Assembly: GCF_025602895.1 (NCBI RefSeq) | Contig: NW_026516340.1 | Coordinates: 43,375 to 107,374, forward strand | Source of the DNA: Polychytrium aggregatum | Taxonomy: Eukaryota; Chytridiomycota; Chytridiomycetes; Polychytriales | Reading direction: 5' to 3' | Length of the DNA stretch: 64,000 nucleotides | Shown: positions 18,721 to 57,502 of the stretch, piece after piece | Layout: every line of letters starts with the position of its first letter | How positions within the stretch are numbered: the stretch's first letter is position 1 | Translations under genes and position numbers: made by a program | The notes under the pieces: generated by a model | What the model was told of the DNA's origin: nothing | The model's input: the letters and a program-made list of their open reading frames with translations, nothing else | The model's database searches: none

Positions 18721-20148
<1,428 letters not shown>

Positions 20149-20220: not shown

Positions 20221-20308
20221 AGTTGTGCTTGCTGATGTGCTTGCTGATGTGCTTGCTGATATGCGTGCTGATATGCGTGCTGATGTGCTGCTGATGTGCT
20301 GCTGATAT
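20221..20308. repeat. Tandem GCTGATGTGCTT-type repeat array
   Basis: Units of about 12 bp (TTGCTGATGTGC, CGTGCTGATATG and a 9-bp shorter form) repeat about eight times immediately downstream of the eS31 polyadenylation signal. Confidence 0.85.
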
Positions 20309-20592: not shown

Positions 20593-23014
20593 ATGTCATC
20601 CACCGAGCACAGCGAGACCAGAAAGCGTCCCGGCGAGCAATCGGCTTCCGATGAGCCCGATCTGGTGAGCTGTCGTTGCTGTCGTTCGGACTGGCTTTGC
20701 ATCCACCAGGCTTTGCATCCACCACGCCGTCGCTCCCGATCATCCGTATTGATCCGATGGCCTCACTATGTGTGCGCCAGAAACGCCTTCATACCGATGG
20801 CCCCATCGTCGCCGAGACCCAGCAACCACGAAAGGTAGAGCTTGACAGCCCGTCAGACGGCCCAGCGTCATCTCTTCGTCGTGCAGTTCGATTGGGGCGA
20901 TCAATTACCATCGCAGCAACCGATCTGCCTGCATTCGCCCGGTTCCGGCCTGGCTCTGGAGTTGGCCATGCTGCTCAAGCATTTGCTGACGCCCTGATGT
21001 CCATGACCATGTTCGCGACCAGAATCGAGGCGATCCAAAGAAGGAAAAGAAGGGCAGGCCTCCAAAGGCTGATGACGACATCGACGAGCCCGCAAAATAC
21101 ACCATCGAAAACGGTATGACCGACCTGCATTTACGGCGGCGACTCGACCCAGGCTTAGTCTCCTGCTGCCTCGGATCGCTGCTCGAGAATTCCACGTTTC
21201 TGAGTCTACCGAGTGCGCAACGGTCCAGGTCTCCGGAAGGTCGAGCCGTATCACTTCAAGTACAAGTCATGCGCAAAGGGCCGATGGTTCGGGCGCACTA
21301 TCATGGATGTGTTTGTCAAGGAGTTTCAAGACGAAACGCCAGAGTACTATGTATGCCTGGCGAGTCTATTACCACTACGACATATGGGATTCGGCCGGCA
21401 TCGCTGCTCCGTCGACGCTGACCGTCGTCCCGCGCTCGATATTCCGACCAGACCCGGGCCATCTCCTCGGGCAAGATCCAGGTGAACGGCAAGACGGTTT
21501 CGCTGGACTACCCCATCAAGAACGGCGATGTCATCATCCACTTTGTCCATCGCCACGAGCCCCCTGTGACTGCCGACAAGATCGACATTGTCCATCAAGA
21601 TGACGAAATGCTCGTTGTTTCCAAGCCGAGCTCGCTGCCAGTACGTAGCTCTGAGTCTGCCGCATGACAAGATGCTCCGTTGCGATCTTGATGTCGAGAC
21701 ACGGCTCTGGCATCCTGTTGTCGCTGCGTCCTTTGACTATTCATCTTCTCGCCGATATTCCTCTGCGCCATAACTGGGGACATCCAGATTCATCCCACAG
21801 GACGATACAACCACAACTCGATGATCCGTATACTGCAGAGCAGCGAGTACGGGTTCGGCAACCTTTACAGTAAGTTGATCGGCATATGTGCCAAGACCGA
21901 GGCCGTCGGTATGGCACATTGCATTGATTTGGCTTGAAGCTCACCTTTCCTCCCGACATACTTTCCATCACCACGACTGCAACCTCGGCCGCAACCGCTG
22001 TCGCCCCTCGATTCAGCGGCAAATCGGCTCGATCGATTGACCTCCGGGCTCGCCTTGATTGCGCTCACCAAGGAAAAGTCCAAGCTTCTCATGACCGAAA
22101 TGATGGAGCGCAACATCAGGAAGACTTATCTCAGCCGAGTCAAAGGAGAGTTCCCCATGTAAGCAGCGGCGTGCCACCCGGTGCTGGCTGCTGCCTCTGC
22201 GTTTGCAGCGACTGTTCCAACCAAGTTGACGACCTCTGTTCCCGCTCTACTCTCAGGGGCGATCTCATCTGCAATGAGCCCATTCTCACGGTTTCATACA
22301 AGCTCGGCCTCAACATTGTCTCGCCGGATGGGAAGCCTTGCACCACTTACTTCCGAAGGCTCAGCTACAACGGTCTCACGAGCGTGGTCGAGTGTGAGTG
22401 TCAAGCGCACCGATGCTTGAGCTTGCCCGAGACAGCAGACACTTCACCATCTGCCGGCATTCTGACCTGTTCTGCCCCTCGACCCTCTAGGCAAACCCGT
22501 CACCGGCCGCACACATCAGATCCGCGTTCATTTGCAGTATCTTGGCTTTCCCATCGCCAACGACCCGCTGTACTGCTCCGAAGCCTGGGGCAAGGATATC
22601 GGCAAGGGCGGCATCGCCGAGGAGGCCAAGCAGGCTATTATCGCAAGGATGGAGCAAGAGGTCTTTCCGTCAACCCCATGCCCAACGGACTCGGCTCCTT
22701 CGTGTAGCTCCAGCAATGCTCCTTGCGAGAGCACTGCTGGCGGGAGTAGCGCTGTGGCCGAGCCCAGCCAGGTCATGGGCGACTTTCGCGACTACTGCTC
22801 CAACTGCATCCACAAACGCTCGGATCCGATCCCACAGCAACTCCAGATCTATCTCCACAGCTGGAGATACGAGAGCGACGGCTGGAACTTCCAGACACAG
22901 CTGCCGGAGTGGGCGCTCGAGTCGTACACCGGTGACAAGGAGCTTGTTGATCGGTTCTGGAAATATGGCGGTAAATGGGATGGTCGGAGTCCCGGTGAGT
23001 GGCTGGGCGATTAG
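20593..23014 (+). CDS. RluA-family RNA pseudouridine synthase (Pus9/Rib2/RPUSD2-like)
   Basis: Converts uridine to pseudouridine in RNA, tRNA position 32 in the yeast homologues. Nine exons join in phase: 20593-20664, 20781-20834, 21023-21113, 21205-21350, 21452-21640, 21788-21869, 22017-22158, 22257-22393, 22491-23014; 478 residues. An S4-like stretch ([20 protein letters not shown]) precedes the catalytic domain. The catalytic motif is [12 protein letters not shown], with the invariant Asp in RLDR, followed by [20 protein letters not shown]. The segment [19 protein letters not shown] is typical of the Pus9/Rib2/RPUSD2 group. No deaminase domain follows, unlike some yeast Rib2 proteins. The start at 20593 is the last upstream Met before a clean GTGAGC donor; the N-terminus is the weakest part. 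The downstream neighbour is the transposon. Confidence 0.9.
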
Positions 23015-23429
23015 CGAGGTCTTGGGCAATGGATCGCTGGCGAGTCACGGATTCTGCCCAGTGACAGCTTCAGAATACGGTTGATGTGCGCATTCATGCC
23101 CCAGATATTCACGCCCCAGATATTCATGCCACACATCTGTCCAATCGAACGAGCCATGCGCCCGAACACGAATTGCATCCGCTGGACACTCAATCGCCAA
23201 TCCTGCCAGCATCACGCGACCAAACCAAAGCCCGGGGCTGCGCTGTCGATAATTCGGTGTATTGGGTTTGCGGTGCAAGTTGCTTAGGCGCACAATCTCC
23301 ACAGGCTCTCTCAAGCAACTCCAGCAACAACCATGGTGCGGCGTTATGGGGGGGGGAACCAACGCGAGGAGCGGCCGTTTCGATGCTACTCGTGGTCCGC
23401 GAGCTATCGGCGATTACAGGCAATCCAAT
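23015..23429. other. Intergenic spacer left of the transposon
   Basis: About 0.4 kb between the pseudouridine synthase stop and the left inverted repeat. A short direct repeat (CCCCAGATATTCAYG) occurs twice at 23099-23130. No gene seen. Confidence 0.6.
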
Positions 23430-23442
23430 AAAAAACGGGACA
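23430..23442 (+). repeat. Left terminal inverted repeat
   Basis: AAAAAACGGGACA; identical over 13 bp to the reverse complement of the right end. It is followed by CCCGGG. Confidence 0.85.
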
Positions 23443-23500
23443 CCCGGGTTTTTGACCATTCATCGAATATTTTGTTACCCAATGTTATCGCACGCTGGCC

Positions 23501-24433
23501 ATGACCATTCGCCACACATCCGACTTTCGCACCGCCGCATTGCGATGCTACGCCCTCATCCATAGCCTGCGTAAGGTCGCCTCCATATTCAGTGTATCCA
23601 AGAGCACCATCCATCGATGGCACCGAGGATGCAAGCTGGATGACCCATCCCGGGTCCCAGCTCGCAGATCCACTTTCTTCGAGCAGGCATGTCCAGTCAT
23701 TCGCACCCTGATTGAACAGGACCCGTTCCAGACTGGTCCTGTGTTGCGATGCAAGCTCGAGTCCATCCTCCAGAGGAAAGTATCACTCTCACTCTGCCAC
23801 ACTGCCATCCACCGAGCAGGTCTCTCACACAAGAGGGCAACACACCTCTACAAGTCCAAGCGACTGGATGAGCGAGTGGCACAGTTCAGGGACCAGGTCC
23901 GTTCCATCGACCCACGACGATTCGTTTTTGTCGATGAGACAGGGATCAGGAGATCCATTTTCCCTCTTTACGGATACTCACCGAAGGGTGCTCCGCTTCG
24001 CCAGCGCAATCACATGAAGCACAAGTCTGTCTCGGTGGCATTTGCCATCAACCACTCTGGTGTGCTGCATCGCATGTACATCCCCACATCATTCAAGACA
24101 CACTCGATGGTCGAGTTCTTTGAGCGAGCGACCTTCCCAGACGACTCTGTGATTGTGATGGACAATGTCAGCATGCACAAGACAATGGCTGTCCTGGACT
24201 GCATCGAGCGCCGAGGATGGTCAGTGATCTTCACCCCACCTGCTTCACCCGACTTCAATCCCATCGAGAACTTCTTTGGGATTGTGAAGCATCAGTACAG
24301 GAAGGCAGCAGCGCTGAATGCGTCCGAGGGGTTCAAGATCGGGATGGTGACCCTGTTTGAGTCCGTCGTGCGGAGGGTGCTTCCAGATGTCTTCCCACGG
24401 CTGATTGAGCGAGCGATGCGCTTCTGGGGTTGA
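23501..24433 (+). CDS. DDE transposase, Tc1/mariner-IS630 superfamily (DD34E)
   Basis: Cuts and rejoins the transposon ends. A single 310-codon frame begins MTIRHTSDFRTAALRCYALI. The N-terminal helix-turn-helix (residues about 12-45, LRKVASIFSVSKSTIHRW) should bind the inverted repeats. The catalytic triad is D145 in FVFVDETG, D221 in VIVMDNVSMHK and E256 in SPDFNPIENFFG; 34 residues lie between the second Asp and the Glu. A GRPR-type linker is absent, and the second DNA-binding part includes a helix before RATHLYKSKRLDE. All key residues are intact and no stop or frameshift is seen. The ATG lies 58 bp inside the left repeat. It is the likely mobilising enzyme for the downstream Fanzor. Confidence 0.93.
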   Translation: MTIRHTSDFRTAALRCYALIHSLRKVASIFSVSKSTIHRWHRGCKLDDPSRVPARRSTFFEQACPVIRTLIEQDPFQTGPVLRCKLESILQRKVSLSLCHTAIHRAGLSHKRATHLYKSKRLDERVAQFRDQVRSIDPRRFVFVDETGIRRSIFPLYGYSPKGAPLRQRNHMKHKSVSVAFAINHSGVLHRMYIPTSFKTHSMVEFFERATFPDDSVIVMDNVSMHKTMAVLDCIERRGWSVIFTPPASPDFNPIENFFGIVKHQYRKAAALNASEGFKIGMVTLFESVVRRVLPDVFPRLIERAMRFWG

Positions 24434-24550
24434 GTTCCCTCCAATCAAGCCGCCATTTTCACGCTCAAATCCCTGGCTTGAACCTCTCGGCGATTTTTGA
24501 ACAGGGTCACTTCCCCAACCAGCCCGCGCAGACGGGTTCCTGCTCTCGGG

Positions 24551-24557
24551 TATAAAT
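24551..24557 (+). promoter_or_regulatory. TATA box upstream of Fanzor
   Basis: TATAAAT 127 nt before the Fanzor ATG and 118 nt after the transposase stop, in the right place to drive Fanzor separately from the transposase. Confidence 0.55.
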
Positions 24558-24683
24558 GCCACACCTTCGTCCTGCTGCTTTCTTCCCTCATCTCGCCTTG
24601 ATCTGATCATCGCGCTATTGTACGATAAAAAAGTCTCTGTTCTGACCAGTACCACTGGCAGGCATCCAGCATCCTCTGCCCCC

Positions 24684-27056
24684 ATGCCTCCGAAGCGCAA
24701 GGGTACCGGTGATGGCCAGCCTCGGCCACCCAGGCCCAAGAAAGCCAAGTCACAGTCGGAGCCTGTCTCTGGTTCGTATTCTGACCCCACGCATGCTTGG
24801 TCGTCTGTTGCTCCGTCGCTCACCACCACTGCTTCTACAGATCCAATGGATGTCGATCCCACCGAGCCTGGTCCATCTACTTCCTCGAGTACCGGCAAGC
24901 GATGTCGCCAGTGCGATGGCACCGATCACGAACGCTGCAACACTAGCAAGTGTCCCAAATACCGGCCCCTCAAGAGTTCTGTCGTCCCACTCGTGGATGG
25001 AAGGTCATCCGCCCCTCAGTTCAGCTGCTTCAAGCAGACGATGGATGGCTGTTGTCTCAATCCCGCTCTCCGCGACAAGATCCAGGCCACCGTCGAGGCC
25101 ATGACCCAGATCCAGTTCGAGGCATCCAGGCTGCTCAACCTGCACATCCTCCGGTGCATCGAGCAGGATCTTCCCGTCCCCGTCATCTCCAGGGCCACCC
25201 CTGCATTCATCCGCCAATGCTTCAGGATCGTCCAGGCCGGTGCCCTCTCGACGGCCAGGGATACCAAGAAATACAACGAGCATCTGGTCGCTTCCTTTCG
25301 CGACTACCAGACCACTCGACACGCAGACCTGCCTCCGGCCCCTCGTCTGCCTGATGGTGCTCACAGTCAGCTTCTCACACTGGCTGTCAACGCCTATGCC
25401 ACCAACTGCACCACCCACCTCGACCTGGCCTACTGGCGACTCCTTCGCCGCTTCTGCGCTGCCGTCTTCCCAGCCAACAAGCATAAGCACGAAGCCATCG
25501 AGGCCTGTCTCGAGCTCTTCGAGAAACCAGGGCAGACTCCACCCAAGGCCGATCTCGAGCTCCTCTACCCGGACTTTGGCCACATCCTGGACAAGTTTCG
25601 GTACAGCAATGACCAGGACCACTTCCGGGCCCTCCATCGCCTCTCACACCATGTGGGAATCCTCGCCCGAGACAAGATGGTCGACAATGTCCACAAGTGG
25701 ATCGACTGTGACATGCCCGCCCTCCGAGTCACCGAGCTGCAGCGCCAGGCCAAGCTGGACGAGCTCACTACCCAAGGCATTCCCTCCGACGACAAGAGGT
25801 TCACCAACGCCAAGTCTGAGCTCGGCACCACCAAGGCCAAGATCAACAAGCTGGCATCCAGGATCAACTGGGCACTCAAGCAGCTCGCCGTCGACACTCC
25901 TCCGGCCGTGTGCACGATAGTTCCTCTATGCACTGCAAGGGCCAAGTGTGTCAAGATTGACACGGTCACTCTCTGGCAACTCCTGGGTCCAAAGAAGCGC
26001 CTTGGACTCACCAGGGACAAGCTCAAGGAAGAAGGTGATGACGGCATCAACAACCAGGATCGTCTCTGGCGCAGTTGCTTCAAGCTGCGTAGTTCCCTCT
26101 TCCAAGAGCGGGACGTGAACAAGAAGCTGTTCAACTACGAGATCAGCACCGATGGAATTGGATGCACCATCGGTCTCGTCAAGTTTGTGCCTCGAACCGA
26201 TCACACCGAGACCATCGAGCCTCCTCCGACTGCCGAGCAGCGTATCCAGGCCCACATCGGCGACCCAGGCCCCGATCGCACCACTTGGATTGGCATCGAT
26301 CCTGGAGTCGGCTCCATCTTCACGGCAGTCATCCAAGCACCGGGCCACCAAGACGAGGTGGTCTCATTCTCGAATGGCCACTACCAGCAAATGTGTGGCC
26401 ATACGTCCAACACCAAGTGGCACAATATCATGAAGTATCGACTCAGCATCGAGACCTGGATGTCGACCACTCCCTCGCCCAAGGTGTCGTCCTCGGAGGC
26501 CTTCAAGGTCCATCTCACCCATGTCCTGCGACCGGAGCTGCGAGTGCAGCTCGACTTCCACCTTGGCAAGAAGGCCCGTCACCATCGCTTCACGGGCCAC
26601 AGGAGACGCCAAGTGGCCGTCGACAGGATGTGCAAGGCCGTCCTGAAGCACGCCCCAATACGGACCGATGTGGTGATCGCCTTTGGCAATGCGTCATGGC
26701 GACAGGGCAAGGGCTATGCATCCAGCCCTCGGAGGCAGCGGTTTGCTCGGTACTTTGAGCAGTTCGAGTACCACCGACGCCGTCCCAATCACCATCATGG
26801 AAGCGTCAAGGTAGTCTCGACGAACGAGTTCAACACCTCGCAAGTGTGCTCCAAGTGCCTGGAGCCAGTTCGGTTGGAAGGACTCGATGCGCCCAGCGTT
26901 GCGAATTCCCACTTTGTCAGGAGCTGCAAGAATCCCAGCTGCCGGACAGTGTGGAATCGCGACGTCAATGCGGCGCGCAACATGATCACAGTATGCAGGT
27001 CGATTGTGGAGACCGGAGAGCGACCGGCGGTCTTCACTCGGAGGCTGCCAAAGTGA
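24684..27056 (+). CDS. Fanzor RNA-guided nuclease (eukaryotic TnpB homologue)
   Basis: 790 residues from the first ATG; the frame is open upstream but only from a non-ATG codon. Two basic clusters at the N-terminus (PPKRKG and RPKKAK) look like nuclear localisation signals. A Cys cluster (CRQCDGTDHERCNTSKC) lies near residues 73-91. The C-terminal half has the RuvC-like nuclease: D539 in WIGIDPGVGSIFTAV, then KKARHHRFTGHRRRQ and VVIAFGNASW. E715 in STNEFNTSQVC precedes zinc-finger cysteines C722/C725 and C748/C753, and D760 lies in WNRDVNAARNM. The order RuvC-I, zinc ribbon, RuvC-III is the TnpB/Fanzor signature. The RuvC-II strand has no acidic residue, so E715 is the candidate alternative Glu, as described for Fanzors. 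No intron, stop or frameshift is seen. It is expected to cut DNA guided by an RNA from the right end of the element. Confidence 0.92.
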   Translation: MPPKRKGTGDGQPRPPRPKKAKSQSEPVSGSYSDPTHAWSSVAPSLTTTASTDPMDVDPTEPGPSTSSSTGKRCRQCDGTDHERCNTSKCPKYRPLKSSVVPLVDGRSSAPQFSCFKQTMDGCCLNPALRDKIQATVEAMTQIQFEASRLLNLHILRCIEQDLPVPVISRATPAFIRQCFRIVQAGALSTARDTKKYNEHLVASFRDYQTTRHADLPPAPRLPDGAHSQLLTLAVNAYATNCTTHLDLAYWRLLRRFCAAVFPANKHKHEAIEACLELFEKPGQTPPKADLELLYPDFGHILDKFRYSNDQDHFRALHRLSHHVGILARDKMVDNVHKWIDCDMPALRVTELQRQAKLDELTTQGIPSDDKRFTNAKSELGTTKAKINKLASRINWALKQLAVDTPPAVCTIVPLCTARAKCVKIDTVTLWQLLGPKKRLGLTRDKLKEEGDDGINNQDRLWRSCFKLRSSLFQERDVNKKLFNYEISTDGIGCTIGLVKFVPRTDHTETIEPPPTAEQRIQAHIGDPGPDRTTWIGIDPGVGSIFTAVIQAPGHQDEVVSFSNGHYQQMCGHTSNTKWHNIMKYRLSIETWMSTTPSPKVSSSEAFKVHLTHVLRPELRVQLDFHLGKKARHHRFTGHRRRQVAVDRMCKAVLKHAPIRTDVVIAFGNASWRQGKGYASSPRRQRFARYFEQFEYHRRRPNHHHGSVKVVSTNEFNTSQVCSKCLEPVRLEGLDAPSVANSHFVRSCKNPSCRTVWNRDVNAARNMITVCRSIVETGERPAVFTRRLPK

Positions 27057-27142
27057 TCTGTTTTATTTCTTGTGGCTTTGCTTGACGCAAGCACAGCACA
27101 TACTACATGTTCATGGAAACGGCTATATTGTCCCGTTTTTTT
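27057..27142 (+). ncRNA. Candidate Fanzor guide RNA scaffold at the right end
   Basis: In TnpB and Fanzor systems the guide RNA overlaps the 3' end of the nuclease gene and runs through the transposon end into flanking DNA. Here the 86 nt after the stop contain a hairpin, TGCTTG-ACG-CAAGCA, at 27079-27093, and end at the inverted repeat. The first bases of the guide would then be host sequence from 27143. The position is inferred from the system, not shown by expression. Confidence 0.45.
27129..27141 (-). repeat. Right terminal inverted repeat
   Basis: TGTCCCGTTTTTT, the exact reverse complement of the left repeat, with one further T at 27142. Confidence 0.85.
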
Positions 27143-27145
27143 CTG

Positions 27146-27151
27146 AATAAA
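27146..27151 (+). terminator. AATAAA just outside the right transposon end
   Basis: A plus-strand AATAAA four nucleotides past the element could polyadenylate a Fanzor transcript that has crossed the right repeat. Confidence 0.35.
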
Positions 27152-27250: not shown

Positions 27251-30200
27251 TTACGGCTCGTCCCGATATCGCTTGGGCATCTGTCGAGCACGATAGATGT
27301 CGTGGTCTGGCGGAGGGCGGCTTGCGTGTCCGCCTCCTGTAGAGCAATTGGGTGTGGATGGGATGGGCCAGTCAGCGATTCAACGCCACTCCATACGAGA
27401 GTATCTCCATCTGCAACAGCAAGAGGGGACGAGCTCTGTGCTTACTTCCAAAGTCATCGTCTTCGTTTCCGCCGTATTCCTGCGCACCCTTCCGCTTGAT
27501 GCCGGCTCCTCGACGACCACCCTGTGGTTGCTGTGCTTGGGGTTGTTGTTGTTGTTGCTGCTGCTGCTGATTCAGAGATGGATCAAATCAGAAACGTGTG
27601 TGATGGGCCATCGTGGTCCTAGCCAAGTTCAAACATACGAAGCTCAACCCGCTTGTCCAATCCGCTCGCTCAATCATCGACTCGGTCCATCGACTCGGTC
27701 CACTTGCTCAGTCGCACAGCCAGGAAAGGCATTCGTTACTTTACCCATCCTGCTCCGCCACGGCCTCGTCCAGGTCCGCCACGCGGTCCGTCGTCGTATC
27801 CTCGGTTTCCGAAGCCGCGTTCCCCAGGCCGTCCCGAGAACCCTCCGACGCCACCTGGTGCGCCAATGTCACTTTGGTAAGGAGGAGGGCCGCCGCCTGG
27901 AGGCGCGTTTGGCAGCGGAATCTGGATCTTGCGCAGACAGTCGATGAGATCGTCTGGTTTCAGGATCACGCCTAGAATCAGCAGAAAAATTACCCCCTGA
28001 GGGCGTCAGTGGAGACCGTGGGTTTGTGGCGGGGGGAGGGGGCACAGGACGAGAGTACGCAGATTGGGCCCCGCGACTCGGCACTCCCGCTCTCCCTCAC
28101 CGTTGTAGTGGGCTGGAGGCGGAAGTACAGAAAGCATCCACGAGATTGGATCGGCGGCGCGCTCGGCCGCGGGCGGCTTGGAAAATGCCGGACCCTGCTG
28201 TTCAAAGCTGTGCGGGGCTTGGAGGAACGGCTGTTGTTGTTGAGCTGGCGGTATGGCGGATTTCGGTGGCTGGTTCTGCTGCTGGAATCCTCGTCCCGAG
28301 TGTCCTTGCGAGCCATGGCCGGAGGATCCGCCCTGGCCGTGGTGCGAAGGGCCATGCTTGTGATGGCCATCGGGGGCGTTGCCGGAGCGCGAGTCGTTGG
28401 TCCTGGATCCGCCATCCTTGCGCGAAGATTGCTTGGAGGACTTTGGTGCGGTTGTGCCTGAGCCACTGGTTGCGACTGTAGCGGCCGATGCGCTGGGCTG
28501 AACCGTGCCGCCTTCCACCAGCGCCTTGATTGAGGGATAGCCGAGCTCTACCCTTTCGATATGATGCAGACCCGAATACGACCACTGCTGTGCTTGATCA
28601 TACAAACTGTCGAGCAAGGGCCGGTCACCTAAGACATCGGGGAGCGGAGTCCATGCATTAGCCATGGACAGCGAGATGCCATCACGATCCTCACTTTGCA
28701 ACAGTGCAGATTGCCGATCAAAGAGTCAGTCCATCATCTTGCAGCGGATTCACATCCCAACCACGCGGCCGATCCTTCCCCATTCCCAGCGTCCATTTTC
28801 TCCCGCACTGTACAGGACGGCGCATGGCACATACTCTCCGGGAACACCTCAGCGATGCGCTTCTCCACTTTGCGCACATTGACCAGATCGCCGTAATTGC
28901 GCTCGTGCTCGAGCAGACGGTTCCAGATCGGCTTGGACTTTTCGGGCGAGATGTTGGCCAGGACTCGCTCGCACAAGGCACGGAAATCTGCCCAAGGAGA
29001 CAAGGGAACGAGTCAAAACCACATATCAAATCCACCATCGCCTCTTCACCTCTCTTTCGACTCACAGTCTGTGGCCGATCGAGTCCGTCGCTTGGCGTAG
29101 CATGATACTCACTGTTCTCGTCGTTGATGCCGATTAGAAAGTCAAAGTAGGCGGTGAGATATTTGAAGGAGCTCTCGTCCTCGTTCATACCAAAGAGCTT
29201 GAGACCGAGTTCGAAAACTTTGCCGGCAACCGTGGCGTCCTTGTTGCAATGATACTCCATAAGCGCTGTCCATGAATGTTCGATCAGCCATCGAGCCGGT
29301 ACAAGTACATCCTCGCCAGACTGAATTGACTCCCGTTCTCCGAGACTGTCTGCGTGAATCGAGCGGCACACCGCAACAGCCCACACCGCAGCAGTCTGAT
29401 GCAAGCCATTGAGACGTACCCGAAGCGACAAACACTTGATAGGTGCAACTCGACTTCCTGGCGCGCCCAAAGATCACCCGAGCTGCACGAATGTTCTGAT
29501 AAAAACAGGCCGATGTAAGAAACAGAGAGCCCTGTCCGAGAAGAGGCATGTGATTCCACACCGTGCTGCTCTCCAACCGGCCTTGGTCAATCACAGACTC
29601 TGGACATTGCTTGCCTAGATGCTATTCGAATCATGCATACCTCCACACGGCGGGCGACCTTCATGTAGGTGATCCAGATCGATCCAAGCGCATCCTTGGC
29701 CTCAGCCAGCTGCCTCTCTTTCTCCTCATCGAGCTTCTGGCTGACTGCTGCCTCACGCTGCTTGAACTTGGCGCGCTCCTGCTCTCGCTTCTCGCCATCC
29801 CACTCGGCCTCCTCGGCGGCCGTGGGCTGATCGATGCCGAGCAAGCGCTCGCGTTCCTGATCGTACTTGGCATTGATTAGCTCGATCTCGCGCTCGTACT
29901 CGGTAACAAGCGAATCAAAGATCGGAGCAATCTCGGAAAACGGCTTCTTGGCGGCCTCTTCAAACTCGGCCAGGGCAAACGACAAAAGGAGACTATGGAA
30001 GCACAGAGTGAGTGTGGCTCGCAGAGTATCGCCATAACCACACGCAAGCCCGTGTTCAGAGTGATAGGGCAGAGTGCTTTGCAAGTGCAAGGCCATAGCC
30101 GTTCTCGTTGCCCGCCGCTGCTCCAAACCGCCGCGCTGGGCCGTACCTCCTGGGATTGGCTTCAAGTCCTGACTTGAGCATGGCCAGGGATTCATCCGGC

Positions 30201-33200
30201 TTTCCAACCTCGGCCAGGTACATCACCGCTTCGTGCCTGTCCATGGCCCGACACATGGAAGGTGAGTGCGATTGGACGCATGATGTGCTCTGGTGCAACC
30301 GGTGCCCGTCCTAGCTCTGCTGCTGGACATCGAGAGCGAACTCACCAGACTTGCGGATAGAGCCTCAGCATCAGGAGAGCGCATTTGTATGCATGCATCA
30401 CTCGGGCCACAACGGCGCTCTTCTCTTCCAGAGCCAAGGGGTTGGACTTTTCCCACTGAATGACCTTGTGCCATGATTGAACCTGATTCCCAAGGCATTG
30501 TCAGTCATACGCCTGCAACTGCCCCCGTGGACACCAAAGAGGGTCGTTCTCGCGTGGTGCTGATGCGTTCGGCACAAGGCTCACCATCCGGCATTCCCGC
30601 TCAGTCCAGCGGGTTGGAACAGCCATCCAGGTCTTTTGCTTGTCGATAAACTCGGTCAGGTTCTTCAGGTTTTTGTAATTGACTCTCGCGGTGATGTAGC
30701 CCGGGGACTTTTCGCTCAGGAACTTCTTGGCCTGTGGCGCGGGCAGATCCAGATGGGAACGATTCGTCAACGCCGCTGGCTCGACTTGGACGCACTCGCG
30801 GATGCAGAACATCCGGCAGAACATCCGGCAGAACATCCGGCAGAACATCCGGCAGAACATCCGGCAGAACATCCGGCAGAAGCGGAGCAAGCAACGTTGC
30901 TGTCGGTGTCATGTTCGCTCGTGTGGTGGCCAGGAGAGGAGAAGTGAGGAGAGGAGCGATTCTTACCATCAACTTGTTGAGCCCATTCTCAAAGACATCG
31001 TACTCTTTCCAGATCGCTTCGATGTTGGATATCGGAATGGCGATGACGCGGTGATAGACGGCACGGAGCTGAGCCATTTTCTGTTGCTCTTCGTAGGTTG
31101 ACTTGGTCTGTCCCAGAAATAGCCCGGAGCGCGCCAGAGGTTGATCAAGTGTGCAGTGCCGGGCGACGATGGCCAGCCCGGATTGTTCGAGCCGTAGGGT
31201 TCATACAAGCAATCCCCGGGAATAACCAGAGAAAGTTACGCCGGACGTGTTCATGGATTCAATGTACCAGTGGGCGTACGCCGTCCGCATTCCGCAGTGG
31301 CCAAGAGAGGACGACACCGTTAGCATGTTGATACAAGTCGACAAGTTGCGTCGCCGTTCCACCACAGCGGTGCACCCCTTGCTCGTTCAGATCCGCTTCG
31401 GCAGAAGCATTCCAAGGATGCTATGGATGAGCTCGAATTGCCACATAGACAGCCGGTCGGTGCCATCCAGTCAAATCCCATGTGCCACAGCTTTATCGTC
31501 TTGCTCTACTTGATGTCCAGCGAGTGACTCCAGCGTGATCCAGTTGTTCACCCAGTCGTCAGTACCGCAAGCGTAAATGGCGGTAGTACATCCCAGACAT
31601 AAGTGACAGTAATGCACGGTTGCCCAGCATCAAGGTGCATCAATAAAGCACAGCGCTGACACAGCCCGAGCGTGCCAATGTCCATAGCATATTGATATGG
31701 CAGCGCATGCCAGCTCGACGGCAAAGTAAAATAGCATAAGCACTGCAGCACAGCCATAATAGCACAGGCCATCCCAACAGCCTGCTCCAGACATCCCTCG
31801 CTGCTTCTCGGCCCTTGGCTTTGCCGACTGCCAGTCGCCACCGCCGAGTCGTTCCGGACTGTGCTGATAGTTTGGATCCTGGTAGGCCCTCGATCGCCGC
31901 CGTCACAATGACTTCGATGCAACGGTCATAGTTTATTTTCCCATGTTCCCGCCATGTGCACCTCGCCAAGTTTTGCACAATACCTCCCCCTCTCCCGCCT
32001 CCACGCCGCTTCCCTCGTCTTCCGCGCACAGCTGTGCTCTTACCTCTCCACTCTTGATAAAGTTCAAATAGTCGCTCCAGATCGAGCCGCTTTCCTTGTC
32101 GATGCCAATGTTCTGGAGGACAAATTCGTATGCCTTGGTGATCGTGGCCCGGTTCTCGGTCCGCTTTTCGACAGAGACATTGGTCACAGGGTGGATCTTG
32201 CGGATGTACGTCAGATACACCTTCCACAGGTCTACGTTGACCACAGATCGCAGACACCGTGTGAAAATTGCATCGACCTTGTCGAAACACTGCAGCTTTT
32301 GCTCAAACTCGACGTATGAAATCCAGTGGCGAGCCTGAAGGGGGACAGCCTGTTGTTAGTGCACTGATATCCGATCTGGAGCGGACCATTGTGTCTTGGA
32401 TGGGCGCCGTGTTGCCGCCAAGGGTTCCTCGGGAAGGATCCCTCGCAGCAGCGATGCTGCCTGGCAGCTCTCCTACTCTTACCGAGGTAGGAAACTGGAC
32501 CAAGATATCCTCGTAGGCCTTGCGGACAATCTCAGGGTCCGGCCGCCGATTGGCTTCCAGCACCAGCGCACTCCAGTAGTCGGTGCCCCAGGGATGCTCC
32601 TGCACTTTGGCATAGAGTTCCTCCAGCTTGTCGACTCGGGAGGCCTCGCCCTTGCGCGAGGATGCTGGCTGCACCAGGCTCTCTGTCGGGGCAAGAGAGG
32701 TGATATCCGGCGGAGAAATATTGCAGTAGATGGGTGAGCAGATACACATCACTCTATGCGCGCGATACCGGCACTGGCCGGACAGACCGCCGACTGAGGC
32801 AGTGCAGATCTCATACCTGACTTGAGCTGTTCAGACGACGAGTCTTCTTGCTGGTCGCTGTGATCGAAGCCACTGCCCTCTGCTGCAGTCGAGTCATGCA
32901 TGGCATCATCGCCTTCGTATGCCTCGCCGCTTGGGGCTGGGCGGTCGGGGTCAGCCTCTGCGCCGTCAGCGACCAAGATCTCGTCATCAGGGCGTTCCGA
33001 GTCGGCATAGTCCTCATCGCCCTGATCATTGAGCCGATCGCCATCGGTCATGTCATGATCGTAGGCTTGGTGAGCATCCACGTCGCTGACGGGGATATGG
33101 CCACCGGACCGATCTTCGGACCGATCTCTGTCCTGGTCCTGGTCATCGTTGGACGGGCCAAGAGGCAACCCGTGCTGGTCGAGAGCGTCGCCCGAGGAGA

Positions 33201-35784: not shown

Positions 35785-36284
35785 GTCTGTTGCGGCGGTG
35801 GCAGCGGCGACTTGCGGGTTGCAGATGCGGGAGAGCCTGGGGAGAAAAGGGCAAACTCGCTCCTGGCCAAGCGTCGGCGGGAAAGACGGGCAGGCCGGGG
35901 GACGAAAAAATGGGCTTCGGCACAAGGACGCGGCAACAGCGACACAGCAACGGCGCCGTGTGCCCACAGCAAGGGCCAATGTCGCGCAAATGTGTCCGTG
36001 TATGACACTGTCGCACAGAGCGCGTCGCACGGCGACACACCGCGCCCGGGCCGTGCACTCGATCCGGACTGGCTCGATCCACATTCGACCGGGATGCACA
36101 CACACACAGCGCACACACGCACACGCACGCGCTCGTCGCCGACATGGTGCATCGCTGTCCTGCATCGCTGTCCTGCATCGGCATTTGCATCGGCATCGGC
36201 ATTTGCATCGGCATTTGCATCGCAAGTCCGTCCAGCCCCCGTCCATCGCATCGCGCACGCACCGTCCTGCTTCATGCATATGCA
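35785..36284. other. Bidirectional promoter between DPBB gene and MSH1
   Basis: 500 bp between divergent starts. Contains an ACACAC/CGCACAC run (36098-36131) and a GCATCGGCATTT repeat (about 36176-36225). No TATA box was recognised. Confidence 0.55.
36176..36225. repeat. GCATCGGCATTT short tandem repeat
   Basis: 6- and 12-bp units of GCATCG/GCATTT alternate just upstream of the MSH1 start. Confidence 0.8.
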
Positions 36285-39200
36285 ATGTCGGTTCTGAGCC
36301 GCCTCCGCCAGTGTGCTGTCGCTCGGCCAGCGTCCGTCCACAGCTACGTCGCCGCGGCTTCGCTGCTCCATATCCAACCGAACTTTCAGCAGACGCAATT
36401 CCGATCCGACTCATCCCACACCGCCAGCGCCACAGCAAAGAGAACCCGCAGTGGGAAACCCCAGAGTCCGTTGCCATCGCCAGATCCACTCTCGATCGAC
36501 GGCTCCTCCTCTGCCCCATTGAGCAAAGGCGTCAGTCAGCCAGTGTCCATCGCCCTGTCCGATCCGACACCTGTGCCTGTCAGAGCAAGAACCCGACGAG
36601 CTTCCTCCAAGCCCATCGACATCAAGATCCCGATCGACCTCTCGCTACGCGATGCCGAAGAGGCCATCACCCTCCAGCCCACGACCCTTCCCGATATTCA
36701 CGACACTCCCCTCATGGGCGAGATTCGCGAGATCCAAAGCAAGCATCCCGACCACATCCTCCTCGTTCAAGTCGGAGGATTCTATGAGGTCTACAAACTT
36801 CCGGGGTACGATTATTTCCAGCAAGTCGCCGAGATATGCGATCTCAGGGTCGCGAACGGGAAGGTGCCGTTTGTGGGCTTCCCAGTCTCGCAGCTTCTGC
36901 GCTATCTTGAGCGTCTACTCAAGGCCGGCAAGACCGTCGCCGTCGTCGACCAGGTGGATGACGACCGCCTGTCAAGGACGAAAACCAAGCTCAGGGCTGT
37001 CACACGGATAGCCACTCCCGGAGCCATGCTGGACGAACACTGGCTCGAGAGCAAGGACAACAACTTCTTCATGTCACTGCTCGTTCTGCAGCCCGATGAC
37101 CTGTCACCTTCGAGCCCGCTGGCCCTCGCGTGGCTGGACATCTCCACGGGCGAATTCTTTGTCGGCAGCTCAACCCTCGGCTCGCTTCCGTCTGTCCTCG
37201 TCAAGGTCCAGCCCAGAGAATTTGTCGTCGAGAAATCGCTCGTGGACCAGGGCCATCCAGCCGCTGTCGCCGTTCAGGACTACATCCAACGGGAGAGCAG
37301 CGGCATCACCCCGCTGATCGCCCGAAAGCCGTCAAAGGAGTTTTCCCATGCAACCGCCCATCCGACCTTTGTGAAACTACTCCAGAGCAACATGGCCAAG
37401 CTCGGGACGGCCCGCCAGCGGCATGCTGTGACCCCGCTGTCCCATCCAGCTCACGAAGCGACGGACGTCTCGGAGCTGCTCGGCCAATTCACCAAGCCAC
37501 AGATCCAAGCGGCTGGAGCACTCCTGAGACACGTAGCCGCCATCTATCCCACGCGATCACTGTCGCTCTTCAACCCAAGCAAGGATGCAGCCTTGGGGGA
37601 GACCATGACAATCGACGCCGTTACGCATGCCTCGCTCGAACTCACAAAAACTCAGCGAACCGGGCTCACCAAGGGCAGCCTGCTCAGTGAAATCGACGAA
37701 ACCGTTACGGCGGTCGGCTCCCGACTACTTGTCCAGCGTATCAGTCGGTATCGAACGTGTGTCTGGTGCAGTTTGTCTGCAGGTTTGGCGCCGCCCCTGT
37801 GGCTAGAGTCTCACCCATGCACGCTCTCGTATCCCAGAGGCTCCTTCGACGTCGGTCCCGGAGATTGAGCGGCGGCTCAATCTGGTCGAAGTGTTTTTCA
37901 CCAACTCGCACCTGCTTGTCGATGTGCGCACCGCCCTCAAGTCCTTCAAAGATATTGAACGCGCCCTGTCCAAACTGCACCTCAACCGCGGCGGGCCAGC
38001 AGACTTCCACCATGTCATACAGAGCCTTAAGATCTCCCGCGATCTACGACAGCTCTTGCTGGACTACGCAGAGTCTCCACAGGGTCAGGCATTGGCTCCA
38101 AAGCTCAGACAATCGCTCCTTGGCCTGACCAGGGCCATCCCCCTGTTTGATGATCTGATCGAAAGGTACGAAGGCTTTGTTTCCGAGGATTACCTGGTCG
38201 AGAACATTGACACAACCGACCAGCCGCGGATTATTCGAGCGGGGTTCGCCCATGAGTTGGACAGGCTCTTGGAACAACGAGCTGAGCTCATTCAGCGAAG
38301 CGAGGCTCTGCGACAGGATCTGACAAAGGAGTATGTGAGCCCTCGGTCTGGTACGTTGCCGCAGCGATCGTTTTATCACGCCGAGTCCCTCCCCGCTGAG
38401 CCGGAGAATGACCACTCTCGGACTCCACCGTCACATCGAATCGAATTGAAGCAAGTGAGGCTCGGTTTTGCCGCGACGAAAGCGCTGCATGTGCGAGTCA
38501 CTTACGTCAACTGATTTGTATATTTACACGACAATCGACCCTGCCCGATGTCGATGTACACCCTTCCACCACCTGCTCACGCACACTCAGCCAATGCTGC
38601 AAACCTTTGCTTCGACCCAAAGCACGGCTGTCTCGTCGAATTCCGGACAGCAGCCCTTCTGAACCAAAAGGTTGAGGCCTCAAGGGACCTGAAGCCCTTG
38701 AGCGTGCAAAAAAACTCAAAGCTGACGCGCTTTCAGAGCGAGGTGAGTTCGGGTGCGTCGCGCCACAGCGATGATCCCGCCTGCCTTTGATTGCAAGAGG
38801 CTGTGTGCGTTGAGAAACGCAGATCTGCTCGCTGTTTCATCAACATCGGTGGCCTGGTCTCCACACGGCTTGATTGAAGGCCGATTGGTCTATCGTCGGA
38901 GCGAAAGCACCCCGCCGGGTGACAGATACGCCCTAACCTCTGGTCCTCCAACGATCCCGATGCTTCAGAAATGGACCAAACTATACAATTTGATTCAGCT
39001 CAACTCGGAGCAGATCTCGATTCTGCAAAAGGACATCTTTGCGGATGCCGTTCGCCGGGTTGGTATTGGGTGTATCCCTTGAGGCTGTGTGTCGCGGCTC
39101 TTGCTGCGTTCACTATCAAACCACGTCGAGCAATTGGATCGAGCCGCTAGATCGGACAATTGCGGTGGGCGATGTAGTGCCAACCGCACCTCGATGCAGA

Positions 39201-48568: not shown

Positions 48569-51500
48569 ATGTAAGTGCCGCGCGGCTGGGTGTTTCAGGC
48601 CGCAGATGTGTGATGCATGAACGGCGTGCTGTTGTCCGTCGCAGGCAGCACCAACGCAGCTCGGTGCGTGCACAAGGACCTGCACCCACATAGATTTGGC
48701 TTGAGCTTGAGCTTGAGCTTGAGCCTGGGTCCTATCCGAGCGAATGGCTTAGGGTCGCTTGCCTGTCCGCTAATCGGTTGCACACAACGATCGCTGGTGG
48801 AAACGAATGCGTCGACTGCTCGAACCGGCGGCATCAAAATCATCTGAATTGCGGGACCCTTGGCCACGGCGCTCTTGACGCCCATGCGACAGGGGCAACA
48901 ACCAATCGACTTTTGGAGGATCAAGCCGGGGATACCATGTGCTGAAGGTACTGAGCTCCGTCCCGTCCCTATCTGGAATATAGTGTCGATGGTATCGGCC
49001 ATGGGCGATCCATGTCAGCCAGTGACGGCGGATCAACCAACCGATGATGGCCAGTACTTTCACCCGCACAACCGCCGATACCCGGCTCTTCGCCGCATCC
49101 CGGAGCGACCGGCTGAACCATCCTCTCGCCATGCAGGTCGTCGAAGGCAGCCCCGCCGACATTGCCGGGCTGGAGCCCTACTTTGACTTTATTATAGGTG
49201 TCAACGGAAAGTACGTTCATCCGTCGAGCGATCCCCAGCGCAGAGTGGAACCACACAAGCTGGGCCGCTGCATGTGCGAGCCAATGTGCCCGGACGATGT
49301 GCCTAACTGTTCTGTGATCCTGTGTTCTCCTCGCTTCCCTGTGTGCCTTCTTCGGTATCCTCCGTACTGGACTTCTGCTTTGCTTCCATGCTCGGTATGC
49401 ACCGCCTGTCTCTTGGTGCCTATTGGCAATTGCCAGGCGACTGGTAAGCTCAACCGGGAGCCTATGTCGTCGATGATATGCACAGTCTCGTTCAGGAGCT
49501 TGGATCGCGCAACGTCCCGGCCAGGATGCTCCCGTTTAGAGTTCGGGTACTTTGTCCGAGAGGGCGGTTCGCGAACCGCTCGAATTCCAAATAACGATAC
49601 GGATGCGATGCAAACTCCCTGCTTCGATTCATAGGACACAGAAGGACCAACGCTGTTGAGCCAGGTTTCGCAGAGCCTGGGCAGGGCCGTCTCCCTGGAT
49701 GTGTACAGCAGCAAGCTGCATTCGATCCGAGGTTTGTGTTGGGCACAGCATTTGGGGCCCTTGGGCAAGCGCAGAATGGGGGGGAGCACGCCACTTGACT
49801 GAAGCTATGCAGCGGCCGTGTCGGAATGACGGCTTCTGGCGAGCGGTTGTTATGGGACATGAGTTTCTGTGCGCAACCAACATTCGCTCACCCCCGATGC
49901 TCGTTTGTGGCGGCTGTTCACAGAGGTCAAGATTGTGCCCTCCAACACGTGGTCGTATCCGGAGGATGGCCTGGTGGGCTGCCACCTGAGGTTTTGTGAT
50001 TTCGAAGGCATCGCGGATCATGTGTGGCACGTTTTGGTAAGGTCTCGATGCGGCACCATGCTCAGAGCAGCTGTCTCGCATAATATCTAGCCTGTTGCCC
50101 ACGCGACTTGAGTTCGCTGGATCGCCACGACGGGCTGTATGGGAGGATCAGAGTGTGCAGCAGCATGCAATGGTGTGCAGTGGTATCGATTGTGCGTGGC
50201 GGTCGCAGATGCGCTGATTGGACTAAATTGTCCACAGCAGCAGCACCTCCTGATAGTTGTCCCTTCGTATTTCCCAAAACGCAACCACATTCCAGGACAT
50301 GTAAGTTGGATTTCAGTGAACATCGATGCGACTAAGGCTTCTCTCGTTGACGAAGCCGCCCAGGGAGCAACGTTTGAGATTGTCGCAGCGCCTGTACGGC
50401 GCTCGAGCACTGAGGCACTCATGAAGCTGTTCCTGGTATCGCACCAGAAGAGCTGCATAGAATGAACCGGCGATTCTGATCTCCACACGACTGGTTTGCT
50501 GGCAGCCACCCTGACTCGCCTGCTGAGGTCGCCGGACTCAAGGCCCAGACGGACTATATCATTGGTACACCGCACTTTACCCTGCGCGAGCCGGATGACT
50601 TGTATCTGATGATCCAGAAGAATCTCGGCATCCCCTTGCGCCTGTACGTTTACAACTCGGAGCTCGATTCGATCCGGGAGGTTATTCTTGCGCCGACTCA
50701 AGGTGAGCACGCGATTGAGAGGATACGGTGCCGATGCTGTGTTTTGAGTCCGGTGGGCCACAGGTTCGTGCCGACGAAGCGCGACCGGAAGGCGATGCTG
50801 ACTCTGCGATCGCTGCCCCACATGTGATTTCCAAAAGGACCCAACGGGGCGGGCAGGTAAGCACGTGTGTGCGAGCATGACTGCTGATTTCATATCAAGA
50901 CGGCGGTGTCGACGTCAATGCCGATTAAGGACGAGCAACAGGCGTCGCGCTTTCGGCACCGCCGTGGCATCCAGGAGTAAATCCTTGCGCTTGTGGCTCC
51001 ATGGATAGAGACTGACTTTGAACTTGAATGGCATCTGGGGGGTGGGCGCAAGTAGCCTTGGATGCGACATTGGATATGGATTCCTGCATCGGATCCAGCT
51101 CCACGGCCAAACGGGCAAGAAGGATAGCTTGGAGCATATGCTTGGGGACTATGTGCGCGAGCACCACCAACACTCTGCTCAACCGACGGGCGCTGATCAC
51201 GACCACGGCCATGATCACCACGACCACGATCATCACGACCACGATCATCACCATGACCATGACCATGACCACGACCATGACCATGAACACCATGATCACG
51301 ATCACGATCACCACCACGATCACGATCACCACCACGGCCATGACCACGACCACGACCATGATCACAATCACGGCCATGATCATGGCCATCCTCACGATCA
51401 CGTCGACGGACACCACGAATCCCATCCAATGTATCTCGAAAACGAGGCTGCGTTGCTGGCCTACGAATCCCACGCCGCAAACTCCAGCGGGCTCTTGCGG

Positions 51501-52076
51501 GCCATCGACTACCAGTCTCAGCCGTCACCGGCTCTCTCGGCGGCCCAGCCGCTGCCGCACATTGAAGCTGGCGTTCCGGTTTCCACCCAGGAATCGACCA
51601 AGCCGCTGCTGGACCAGTCGCCATCGGCCGATCTGCATACCGATTTGGCATCCGCCCCGCCAATGACCCGCGGGTACGGTAGCGGATCTGGTCTGCCCAG
51701 ACACCCGCAAGCATACCATTCGGCAAGCATTGCGACGGCGTCATCGCTGCCACCGGCCATCGCCGGTCCAGCGGCGCACCCGGGACGGTCGCCCCAACTT
51801 TCGGCGGTGGCGGCGGCGGTGGGCAACTCTACTCACTTTTTCGACGAGCTCTCGGGGCTTGCGACGGGTGCTCCCGCTGCCAGCAACGGCACAGCGAGAG
51901 TCCCTGGAGCGGCATACCATCCTCATCCTCACCCTTCGCCTCCGACAGCGGCGCTGTCCCCGTCGATGGGTGTGGGAGGCCTGGTCATGTCACGGACCCT
52001 CTCCAACACCTCAAGTGCCTCCAGGAAAGTGCACGATCCTCAAGACTTGGCGCCGGCCTCGGAGCTGTTCAAGTGA
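48569..52076 (+). CDS. GRASP (Golgi reassembly/stacking protein) with His/Asp-repeat tail
   Basis: Peripheral membrane protein of the early secretory pathway. Nine exons in phase: 48569-48570, 48893-48947, 49137-49210, 49486-49546, 49926-50036, 50296-50300, 50506-50702, 50838-50856, 51053-52076; 515 residues. The product begins MGNNQSTFGGSSRGYHVLK, a good N-myristoylation context. PDZ1 has EGSPADIAGLEPYFDFIIGV and VKIVPSNTWSYPEDGLVG to HLRFCDFEG; PDZ2 has HPDSPAEVAGLKAQTDYIIG, PLRLYVYNSELD and the hallmark LGCDIGYGFLHRI. The ATG is split between exons 1 and 2, exon 6 is 5 nt (GACAT, giving the conserved Asp-hydrophobic before HPDSPA) and exon 8 supplies GPNGAG. After the GRASP domain come about 75 residues almost entirely His and Asp, then a Ser/Pro/Ala-rich spacer. 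Such His/Asp runs bind divalent metals in other proteins; here that is inference. Confidence 0.9.
48712..48731. repeat. GAGCTT hexanucleotide repeat in GRASP intron 1
   Basis: TTGAGC units repeat about four times in the intron that splits the start codon. Confidence 0.8.
51196..51420 (+). repeat. CAC/GAC codon repeat encoding a His/Asp tract
   Basis: An in-frame run of CAY and GAY codons about 220 nt long inside the last GRASP exon. Codons vary at the third base and GGC, AAT and CCT codons break it up, so it is not a pure microsatellite. Confidence 0.9.
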
Positions 52077-56553: not shown

Positions 56554-57502
56554 ACCCAGCCAACCGAATGGCGTTGACTGAATCCGGCGGCTGGCTCGGG
56601 CGATGCAACCGGCTGCCAGAGTGGTCTGGGACTCGCCTCCCCCTCCCTCTCTTGCTCCTCCATCTTGTGCTCAGTGTGTGTGCGCGAATCTTGCGCCTTT
56701 CGCCTATTTAATCATTATCCTGTTGTACTCTTCCCGTGGCAAGCCTCCTCGGCTGCCCTGCACTCTGTTTGCCCGTCTGGCATAATTTGCCTGCTTCTCA
56801 CTCGCGTATTCCTCCCTGTTTTCCGGCTCCTCTTTCCTCTCTTCCTCTCTCCCTCTCTTACTTCCTCTGCTCTCGTGTTTCTCATGTGCTCTCATGCGCT
56901 TGCTCCTGCCTCTCCTTCTCCCAAATCCAAAAAAAAGAAAAGAACGGAATATCCACCTTCTCAGCCCAATCCAGAACCTCACTGCAGCTGCACTGGCCCC
57001 TCCACTTTACCTCACTCTGCTGTTACAGCTCTTCGGGAGAAAGAGAGGAAGAATCTCAACGCCGCCCCGAGATTCCTGGAATCGCTGCCGCGCAATACGA
57101 AGCTCATCCATCGATCTCAGCGGCCGTTGTTCGATTCATCATCCCACCACCAGCATTACTGTTTTGGGCAGCATGATCTTGAATATACGAGGGCGATCCA
57201 CATGAGACGATCTGCTTGGACACTGTGACGGTGCTATCTTGTGGGGGGGGGTGGATGGCCGCTTCGTGAGCCGCCTCCGTATCGTCCATGAGTCGTTTTC
57301 ATGTCATCCATGAGTCGTCTCCACATTGTGCATGCGCCGTCATTCCCTGCCCTGGCTTGGCTGCGCCTTTGCTGTCCCGCATCCGACACCAGACATTGCC
57401 GCCCTGGATGTGTGCTGCTGTCCCATGCCGCCGCATTGCTCTGATATATAGCCGATGACCATTTGCTGCCATCTTCCCGCCCCCCACAGCAGACCAAACG
57501 TC
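56554..57502. other. Intergenic, promoter of PhyH-like gene
   Basis: About 0.95 kb, T/C-rich to 57060. Two nearly identical CATCCATGAGTCGT/ATCGTCCATGAGTCGT copies lie at 57282-57320. A TATATA motif lies 60 nt before the next gene's start. No gene seen. Confidence 0.5.
57441..57447 (+). promoter_or_regulatory. TATA-like box of the PhyH-like gene
   Basis: ATATATA about 56 nt upstream of the chosen ATG at 57503. It lies too close to the earlier in-frame ATG at 57455 for that one to be used from this box. Confidence 0.4.

Follow-up and report, generated by a model that had tools for sequence, protein, structure and literature searches.

Mariner-Fanzor1 elements with their own transposase, PGv-1 and PUl-1, were described by Bao and Jurka in 2013 (PMC3627910). 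The presence of Fanzor in eukaryotic DNA transposons was thus already known, as the sequence-only reading of this locus had stated, and the element described here is a further example of that pairing, because Mariner-Fanzor1 elements of this constitution had been published. The biological role of the RNA-guided cutting by Fanzors is given as unknown (PMC10432273), and TnpB has been proposed to help IS200/IS605 keep its place (PMC11870625). Within the parts of the open-licence literature on Fanzor and related transposons that were accessible to us, no description of the present element was found.

The window (the whole 64-kb stretch of DNA analysed), from a eukaryotic and probably fungal genome, contains one apparently intact copy of an element of ~3.7 kb, which is probably an IS630/Tc1/mariner DNA transposon with a Fanzor1 nuclease as its second gene. 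Its features are as follows.

23430–23442, + strand: left terminal inverted repeat, AAAAAACGGGACA, perfect over 13 bp.
23501–24433, + strand: IS630/Tc1/mariner DD34E transposase, 310 aa, identified by DDE_3, NCBIfam IS630, alignment to relatives from bacteria and viral contigs, and fold.
24551–24557, + strand: TATAAAT, a putative promoter that would serve the nuclease gene alone, by match to the consensus only.
24684–27056, + strand: predicted RNA-guided nuclease of the Fanzor1 type (790 aa when started at the first ATG), identified by PF07282 and motifs.
27067–27147, + strand: candidate guide-RNA scaffold, suggested by a predicted fold (z about −2).
27129–27141, − strand: right terminal inverted repeat, the perfect 13-bp partner of the left arm.
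27146–27151, + strand: AATAAA, outside the right repeat, containing the nearest TA on the right and reading as a polyadenylation signal.

The transposase and Fanzor1-type open reading frames point in the same direction and are enclosed by a single pair of inverted repeats, of which the left arm lies 58 bp upstream of the transposase ATG and the right arm 72 bp downstream of the nuclease stop codon. Both frames are uninterrupted on the + strand over the coordinates listed, and for both genes the codon score of the true frame exceeds that of either alternative frame. These results bear out three proposals of the sequence-only reading, namely that both genes are intact and in the same direction, that a Fanzor is paired with a DD34E transposase in one unit bounded by terminal inverted repeats, and that perfect 13-bp repeats close the element: motifs, family models and repeats agree, and the two arms match exactly. 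A search of the 64-kb window for a further copy of either protein gave no other match better than E 0.69. A scan of the full 64 kb against Rfam with gathering thresholds gave no match, and TRF and ARAGORN added nothing on the element.

The assignment of the first gene as an IS630/Tc1/mariner DD34E transposase is supported. The protein matches Pfam DDE_3 (5.3e-24) and passes the cut-off of the NCBIfam IS630 model (125.3 bits, cut-off 100). The catalytic triad is formed by D145, D221 and E256, with exactly 34 residues separating D221 and E256. These three columns are invariant in both the 5-sequence and the 14-sequence alignment, and four bacterial IS630 relatives are 25–31% identical to the transposase in alignment. 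Among PDB entries, the predicted structure of the transposase (mean pLDDT 78.4) is most similar to Mos1 complexes (best 1.7e-9) and to Sleeping Beauty (1.2e-7). The Mos1 matches across the whole transposase superpose poorly, with TM-scores up to 0.47 and an rmsd of ~22, whereas matches to the catalytic domain superpose better than these full-length matches. In the model, the N-terminal part has two three-helix groups (residues 7–41 and 54–105), which, like the best fold match to full-length Mos1, would fit the DNA-binding region with two helix-turn-helix motifs of this superfamily; but HTH_23 stays below its cut-off (18.6 against 24.6 bits), and the second three-helix domain has no family match. 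Two features of the IS630-Tc1-mariner superfamily are present in the element: terminal inverted repeats and a DDE triad of DD34E type on an RNase H fold. Against the genome collection, the transposase matched 84 stretches and yielded one relative, at 30%. Against viral contigs, the single sequence matched 10 stretches, none of which was confirmed, and the 5-sequence alignment matched 77 stretches and yielded 23 loci.

Sequence motifs support the assignment of the second gene as a Fanzor, of Fanzor1 type by its DPG, displaced Glu, C4 zinc finger, RD and TDG. The predicted protein matches PF07282 (TNB zinc-finger domain) at 1.8e-9, above the cut-off, and contains TDG at 489–491, D539 in a DPG, E715, zinc-finger cysteines C722, C725, C748 and C753, and R759–D760. 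Fanzors (1 and 2) are described as having DPG in RuvC1 and a Glu six residues ahead of the zinc finger (PMC10711439); consistent with this arrangement, D539 opens a DPG, E715 lies six residues ahead of C722, at the displaced-Glu position, and the C4 finger and R759–D760 of the same published arrangement follow. The WED domain of Fanzor1 is reported to carry a TDG motif (PMC10711439 section 28), and the TDG of the nuclease is the only one in the protein, a three-residue motif being weak alone. Furthermore, the published Fanzor1 pattern D-X(125,275)-[TS][TS]-X-X-[C4 finger]-X(5,50)-RD (PMC3627910) matches from D539 when the spacing within the finger is allowed to vary, the motif being one common to TnpB. 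The strict Fanzor-like TnpB pattern DPG-x(120-160)-E-x6-CxxC-x(12-18)-CxxC-x(4-8)-D (PMC10711439) does not match in its published form, and matches only with a D–E distance of up to 180, a finger gap of up to 25 and CxxxxC as the second pair; we did not take it to define Fanzor1, because according to its source it was made for retrieving Fanzor-related TnpBs. A canonical TnpB is not favoured, because the Glu is displaced and the NCBIfam guided_TnpB score of 27.2 bits is below the cut-off of 100.

The nuclease had also been credited with every residue needed for activity. This holds for both catalytic triads of the element and for the C4 zinc ligands, but not for one metal ligand. Specifically, the ligands of SpuFz1 are D383, N385, E541 and D606 (PMC10432273), of which D, E and D have counterparts in the nuclease, while the counterpart of N385 is the G of DPG. 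We do not count this G against activity, because DPG is described as near exclusive in Fanzors (PMC10711439). The start of the nuclease is a choice, since its frame stays open as far back as 24501, and the part upstream of 24684 contains a TTG at 24618 but no ATG.

Over its last 49 residues, the nuclease can be aligned with SpuFz1 (8gkh), at E-values of 0.15 and 0.28 that fall short of significance, and LaTranC chains reach scores about equal to or above that of 8gkh. The AlphaFold model of the Fanzor, made without relatives, has a mean pLDDT of 40.8 and is unusable. In viral contigs, where only close relatives are detectable, the whole Fanzor matched no stretch, and its C-terminal part matched one that was not confirmed; plasmids and phages gave no match at E 0.01. 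A degenerate WNRD...NM pattern of the C-terminus was found at nine loci in viral contigs, all of which were read as chance because the frames at the match span only 9 to 54 aa.

The candidate guide-RNA scaffold folds into hairpin 1 (27071–27102) and hairpin 2 (27110–27147), with the right repeat in the 3′ arm of hairpin 2. In Fanzor1 reRNAs, the right repeat is likewise reported to lie in the last hairpin (PMC10711439 section 27). The fold is marginal, as 11/200 and 9/200 shuffles fold equally well, and the longer stretch 27040–27142 shows no folding excess (equalled by 144 of 300 shuffles). The modelled fold of the Fanzor 3′ UTR is compatible with a Fanzor1 guide RNA, at a stability marginally better than chance.

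By analogy with described systems, cut-and-paste transposition combined with Fanzor re-cutting of emptied sites is the likely mechanism. Judged from its family, the DD34E transposase would bind the terminal repeats and move the element by cut-and-paste into TA sites. As in SpuFz1 and the SfAV Fanzor, the 3′ UTR of the Fanzor gene and the right repeat would form the guide-RNA scaffold, and the host DNA immediately past the right end would provide the guide. Upon excision, the guide would pair with the rejoined empty site next to a target motif whose final bases are TA. The nuclease would then cut the emptied site, and repair from the sister copy would restore the element. We tentatively consider it possible that the element is an autonomous fungal Fanzor1-mariner element whose right repeat would both be bound by the transposase and form the final hairpin of the guide RNA, so that one sequence would serve both cut-and-paste and RNA-guided re-cutting.

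The nuclease could instead be a passenger, with the transposase alone moving the element and Fanzor adding nothing measurable to transposition or retention. We regard this as unlikely. At least five transposon superfamilies are reported to have captured Fanzor1 (PMC3627910), its nuclease activity is stated to have an unknown role (PMC10432273), and the RNA fold is marginal, all of which fit a passenger. However, the 790-codon frame retains the triad, the zinc ligands and coding-type codon use, and a useless gene should decay, although a recent insertion would likewise show an intact Fanzor frame.

At the left edge of the element, a TA at 23429–23430 has its A in common with the left arm; if this is the target site, the element would start at 23431. 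A TA duplication directly at both arms was sought and not found, the right-hand counterpart at 27141–27142 being TT. The nearest TA on the right is at 27148–27149, six bases further on past the right repeat, and if this is the target site, the element would end at 27147. An end at 27147 has TA on both sides of the element and lengthens the hairpin by TTCA/TGAA. AATAAA, which contains the right TA, also occurs at 23427–23432. The chance frequencies of 2.6% (4-mer in common) and 0.19% (TA on both sides) are not fair tests, since the nearby AATA had already been noticed when they were calculated. The right end without a clean TA duplication is what an old or domesticated single immobile copy would show, in which the genes are open and the ends no longer functional, and so are the short repeats, the one copy in 64 kb and the GC content of 0.570, like that of the flanks (0.570 and 0.577). 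Such a copy is nevertheless improbable in our judgement, because the 13-bp repeats are perfect and both frames intact.

A perfect match of at least 13 bp was obtained in none of the dinucleotide shuffles (0/300 with 100-bp flanks, 0/300 with 200-bp flanks and 0/150 with 300-bp flanks) and in 0/250 control pairs, for which two 200-bp stretches with that spacing were drawn at random from other parts of the window. The length of the repeats would not settle the matter by itself, since the same 5.5 kb also contains a perfect inverted repeat of 14 nt with no evident meaning; it is the position that counts. A search of the window for the 12-base core of the repeats, allowing ≤2 mismatches, revealed no second copy; its 2 occurrences, against a shuffle mean of 2.98, are no excess. 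That the two genes are adjacent by accident and the repeats coincidental, as the 14-nt repeat and the unenriched core might suggest, is very improbable and was rejected, because neither the 750 shuffles nor the 250 control pairs ever reached such repeats at these positions, and the order, transposase 5′ and Fanzor 3′, is that published for PGv-1 (PMC3627910).

A compact element in which the DD34E transposase and the Fanzor are both intact would offer a direct test of nuclease-aided retention in a double-strand cut-and-paste transposon. Bacterial IS630 elements encode a DDE transposase with the same triad, but tblastn (E up to 0.01) found no Fanzor at 28 loci of transposase relatives, each covering at most 5 kb on either side of the match. 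Compared by description only, PGv-1 has its transposase in the 5′ part and its Fanzor in the 3′ part, as in the present element, and additionally encodes a GIY-YIG endonuclease; PGv-1 and PUl-1 are flanked by TA duplications, whereas that of the present element is not clean (PMC3627910). For SPu-1, a self-mobile element of this kind is reported to have been looked for in Spizellomyces and not found. SPu-1 of Spizellomyces punctatus, the element of SpuFz1, resembles the present one in carrying a Fanzor1 between terminal inverted repeats (PMC10432273, PMC3627910), and the C-terminus of SpuFz1 is weakly similar to that of the present nuclease. SPu-1 has putative TA duplications (PMC10432273, PMC3627910), where the present element has a TA at its left edge and its nearest right TA at 27148–27149. 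The RNA scaffold of SPu-1 lies between the stop codon and the right repeat (PMC10432273), as does the candidate scaffold here. SPu-1 is described as ~2.1 kb long, with repeats of 30–33 bp, many copies and no transposase between the repeats (PMC10432273, PMC3627910); in contrast, the element described here encodes a transposase of its own, is bounded by 13-bp repeats and is known from one copy.

The element at 23430–27142 holds two uninterrupted frames on the + strand, encoding a DD34E transposase (310 aa) and a Fanzor1-type nuclease (790 aa), between perfect 13-bp inverted repeats. This confirms the observation of the sequence-only reading, which had described an intact Fanzor packaged with a transposase in one repeat-bounded element; the interpretation given there is partly supported.

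Features of the element and its neighbourhood
19672–20148, upstream of the element: ubiquitin-eS31 gene (strong PDB matches)
23430–23442: left arm of the inverted repeat, 13 bp, perfect
23501–24433, + strand: transposase, stop-free frame
24684 (ATG) to 27056 (end of stop), + strand: nuclease, stop-free frame
27129–27141: right arm, 13 bp, perfect
29587–30207, − strand, downstream: Suf/RNA14-like gene
36006–37865, farther downstream: MutS (Pfam)
57452–58516, farther downstream: PhyH protein (Pfam)

The two genes are separated by a 250-bp spacer. The nuclease frame is open upstream to 24501, with a TTG at 24618 and no ATG between 24501 and 24684. Codon use of both genes resembles that of four host ORFs more in-frame than in either other frame (transposase, 0.123 versus −0.097 and −0.204; nuclease, 0.254 versus −0.067 and −0.164), and element and flanks agree in GC content (0.570 against 0.570 and 0.577). 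The surrounding DNA is eukaryotic and probably fungal, the fungal placement being tentative. Pfam matched four of ten ORFs of the window and found no match for the open frame 22521–23011, immediately upstream. The best full-length PDB match of the ubiquitin-eS31 gene is 7r81, named an S27a fusion, which we take to be a Neurospora structure. Tandem repeats occur in the surroundings: a 12-bp unit at 20224–20306 (7.1 copies, TGTGCTTGCTGA), soon after the ubiquitin-eS31 gene; a perfect 12-bp unit at 30804–30881 (6.5 copies, GCAGAACATCCG), ~600 bp past the Suf/RNA14-like stretch; a long degenerate array at 51194–51389 (units of 6, 12, 15 and 18 bp) within the open frame 51009–52073; and a 24-bp unit at 55090–55200 (4.6 copies at 93%), immediately before the 439-aa open frame 55234–56550 (third-position GC 0.80). 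Neither of these two frames has a Pfam match.

The 310-aa protein is an IS630/Tc1/mariner transposase, as established by family models, catalytic triad and fold. Specifically, it matches Pfam DDE_3 (5.3e-24) and NCBIfam IS630 (3.2e-36, 125.3 bits, cut-off 100), and its triad (D145, D221 and E256) is invariant in an alignment with four bacterial relatives of 25–31% identity. In tblastn, 764 plasmid records match it, all at <60% identity (26.8–34.4% in the 20 listed). Among solved structures, its structure model (14 aligned sequences, mean pLDDT 78.4) best matches complexes of the Mos1 mariner (1.7e-9 to 2.6e-8), along with the catalytic domain of Sleeping Beauty (1.2e-7). Whole-chain superposition on Mos1 is poor (TM-scores ≤0.47, rmsd about 22), as would be seen if the domains differed in relative placement; superposition on the Sleeping Beauty domain is better (rmsd 5.8, TM-score 0.64 by the length of that domain).

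The nuclease matches PF07282, the TNB zinc-finger domain (1.8e-9, 38.0 bits versus a cut-off of 26.3); its matches to NCBIfam TnpB models lie far under their cut-offs, as expected for a distant relative. Motifs, rather than a tree, suggest its assignment to Fanzor1. It carries DPG with D539, E715 six residues ahead of C722, zinc-finger cysteines C722, C725, C748 and C753, R759-D760, and TDG at 489. According to PMC10711439, DPG and a displaced glutamate mark Fanzors, TDG typifies the WED domain of Fanzor1, and Fanzor1 proteins reach about 800 residues. The nuclease conforms to the general TnpB/Fanzor motif of PMC3627910 and fails to match the strict search pattern of PMC10711439, because its finger is wider and its spacing longer. 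The claim that it has every residue needed for activity holds for D539, E715, the C4 cysteines and D760. N385 of SpuFz1 (the Spizellomyces punctatus Fanzor), a metal ligand according to PMC10432273, has no counterpart, its equivalent place being the G of DPG; as PMC10711439 describes DPG as nearly exclusive to Fanzors, this does not speak against activity. SpuFz1 (8gkh) is the only Fanzor-labelled solved-structure match, over the last 49 residues (E-values 0.15 with the C-terminal part as query and 0.28 with the whole protein); LaTranC chains equal or beat it (0.062 and 0.07; 0.27 and 0.31), and this C-terminal match is only suggestive. Judged by eye, the basic N-terminus (PPKRK at 2, PKKAKS at 18) may contain a nuclear signal, and a CxxC at 74 may be a zinc knuckle; no Pfam family matches this region. 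The single-sequence structure model of the nuclease was too poor for use.

The arms extend outward to 20 nt at 85%. The longest flank-to-flank match, 13, is equalled in none of 300, 300 and 150 shuffles (100-, 200- and 300-bp flanks, respectively), nor does it arise in any of 250 pairs of 200-bp control stretches. With ≤2 mismatches allowed, the arms are the sole sites of their 12-base core in the window; two matches are not above the chance mean of 2.98, so their number alone is uninformative and it is their placement that informs. Tc1/mariner insertion duplicates TA. At the left edge a TA lies at 23429–23430, its A doubling as base 1 of the arm; at the corresponding right edge TA is absent, 27141–27142 being TT. 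AATAAA flanks the element on both sides (23427–23432 and, just outside the repeat, 27146–27151), and the pair may be a trace of the TA duplication and also a polyadenylation signal. A right end at 27147 would place TA on both sides, at the cost of lying 6 bp beyond the arm; alternatively, the TT may be a decayed TA duplication, and we do not rank these two readings.

The right end also provides a candidate guide RNA. The fold of 27067–27142 reaches −18.7 kcal/mol (z −2.00; 11/200 shuffles equally good), and that of 27067–27147 reaches −20.1 kcal/mol (z −1.93; 9/200). In separate shuffles, folds as good arose in 10/300 for 27067–27142, 24/300 for 27057–27142, 20/300 for 26990–27142 and 144/300 for 27040–27142. 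Since several starts were tried (nine ranges folded, four shuffled), fold energy gives weak support; the predicted shape, rather than the energy, fits a guide-RNA scaffold, with a strong hairpin followed by one pairing the right-repeat CCGTTTTT with the internal GGAAACGG, which gains TTCA/TGAA pairing if the element ends at 27147. Rfam models, applied to the whole window at their gathering thresholds, match nothing. The seven-T run at 27136–27142 disfavours a polymerase III transcript, and processing from a messenger would then be required.

Intact frames, catalytic residues and repeats are observed; beyond these, we infer from relatives a mechanism in which the transposase would cleave at the repeats and insert at TA, a right-end read-through transcript would supply a scaffold and a guide taken from the flank, Fanzor would cut the rejoined empty site next to a motif ending in TA, and repair from the sister copy would restore the element. 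The filled site would escape cutting because the right repeat would then occupy the bases ahead of the guide. The left flank reads CCAATA; the SpuFz1 target motif is CATA according to PMC10432273. The same cut-and-restore logic is described for TnpB in PMC11870625.

According to PMC3627910, the published elements PGv-1 and PUl-1 carry Fanzor1 with Mariner-like transposases, and fungal Fanzor1 are known, including SPu-1 with putative TA duplications; SPu-1, the source of SpuFz1, has no transposase between its repeats, as PMC10432273 reports. Given these precedents, the present kind of element is already known. The element differs from SPu-1 in having its own transposase and resembles PGv-1 and PUl-1 in joining Fanzor1 to a Mariner-type transposase; its contribution is an example, probably from a fungus, in which neither gene is disrupted.
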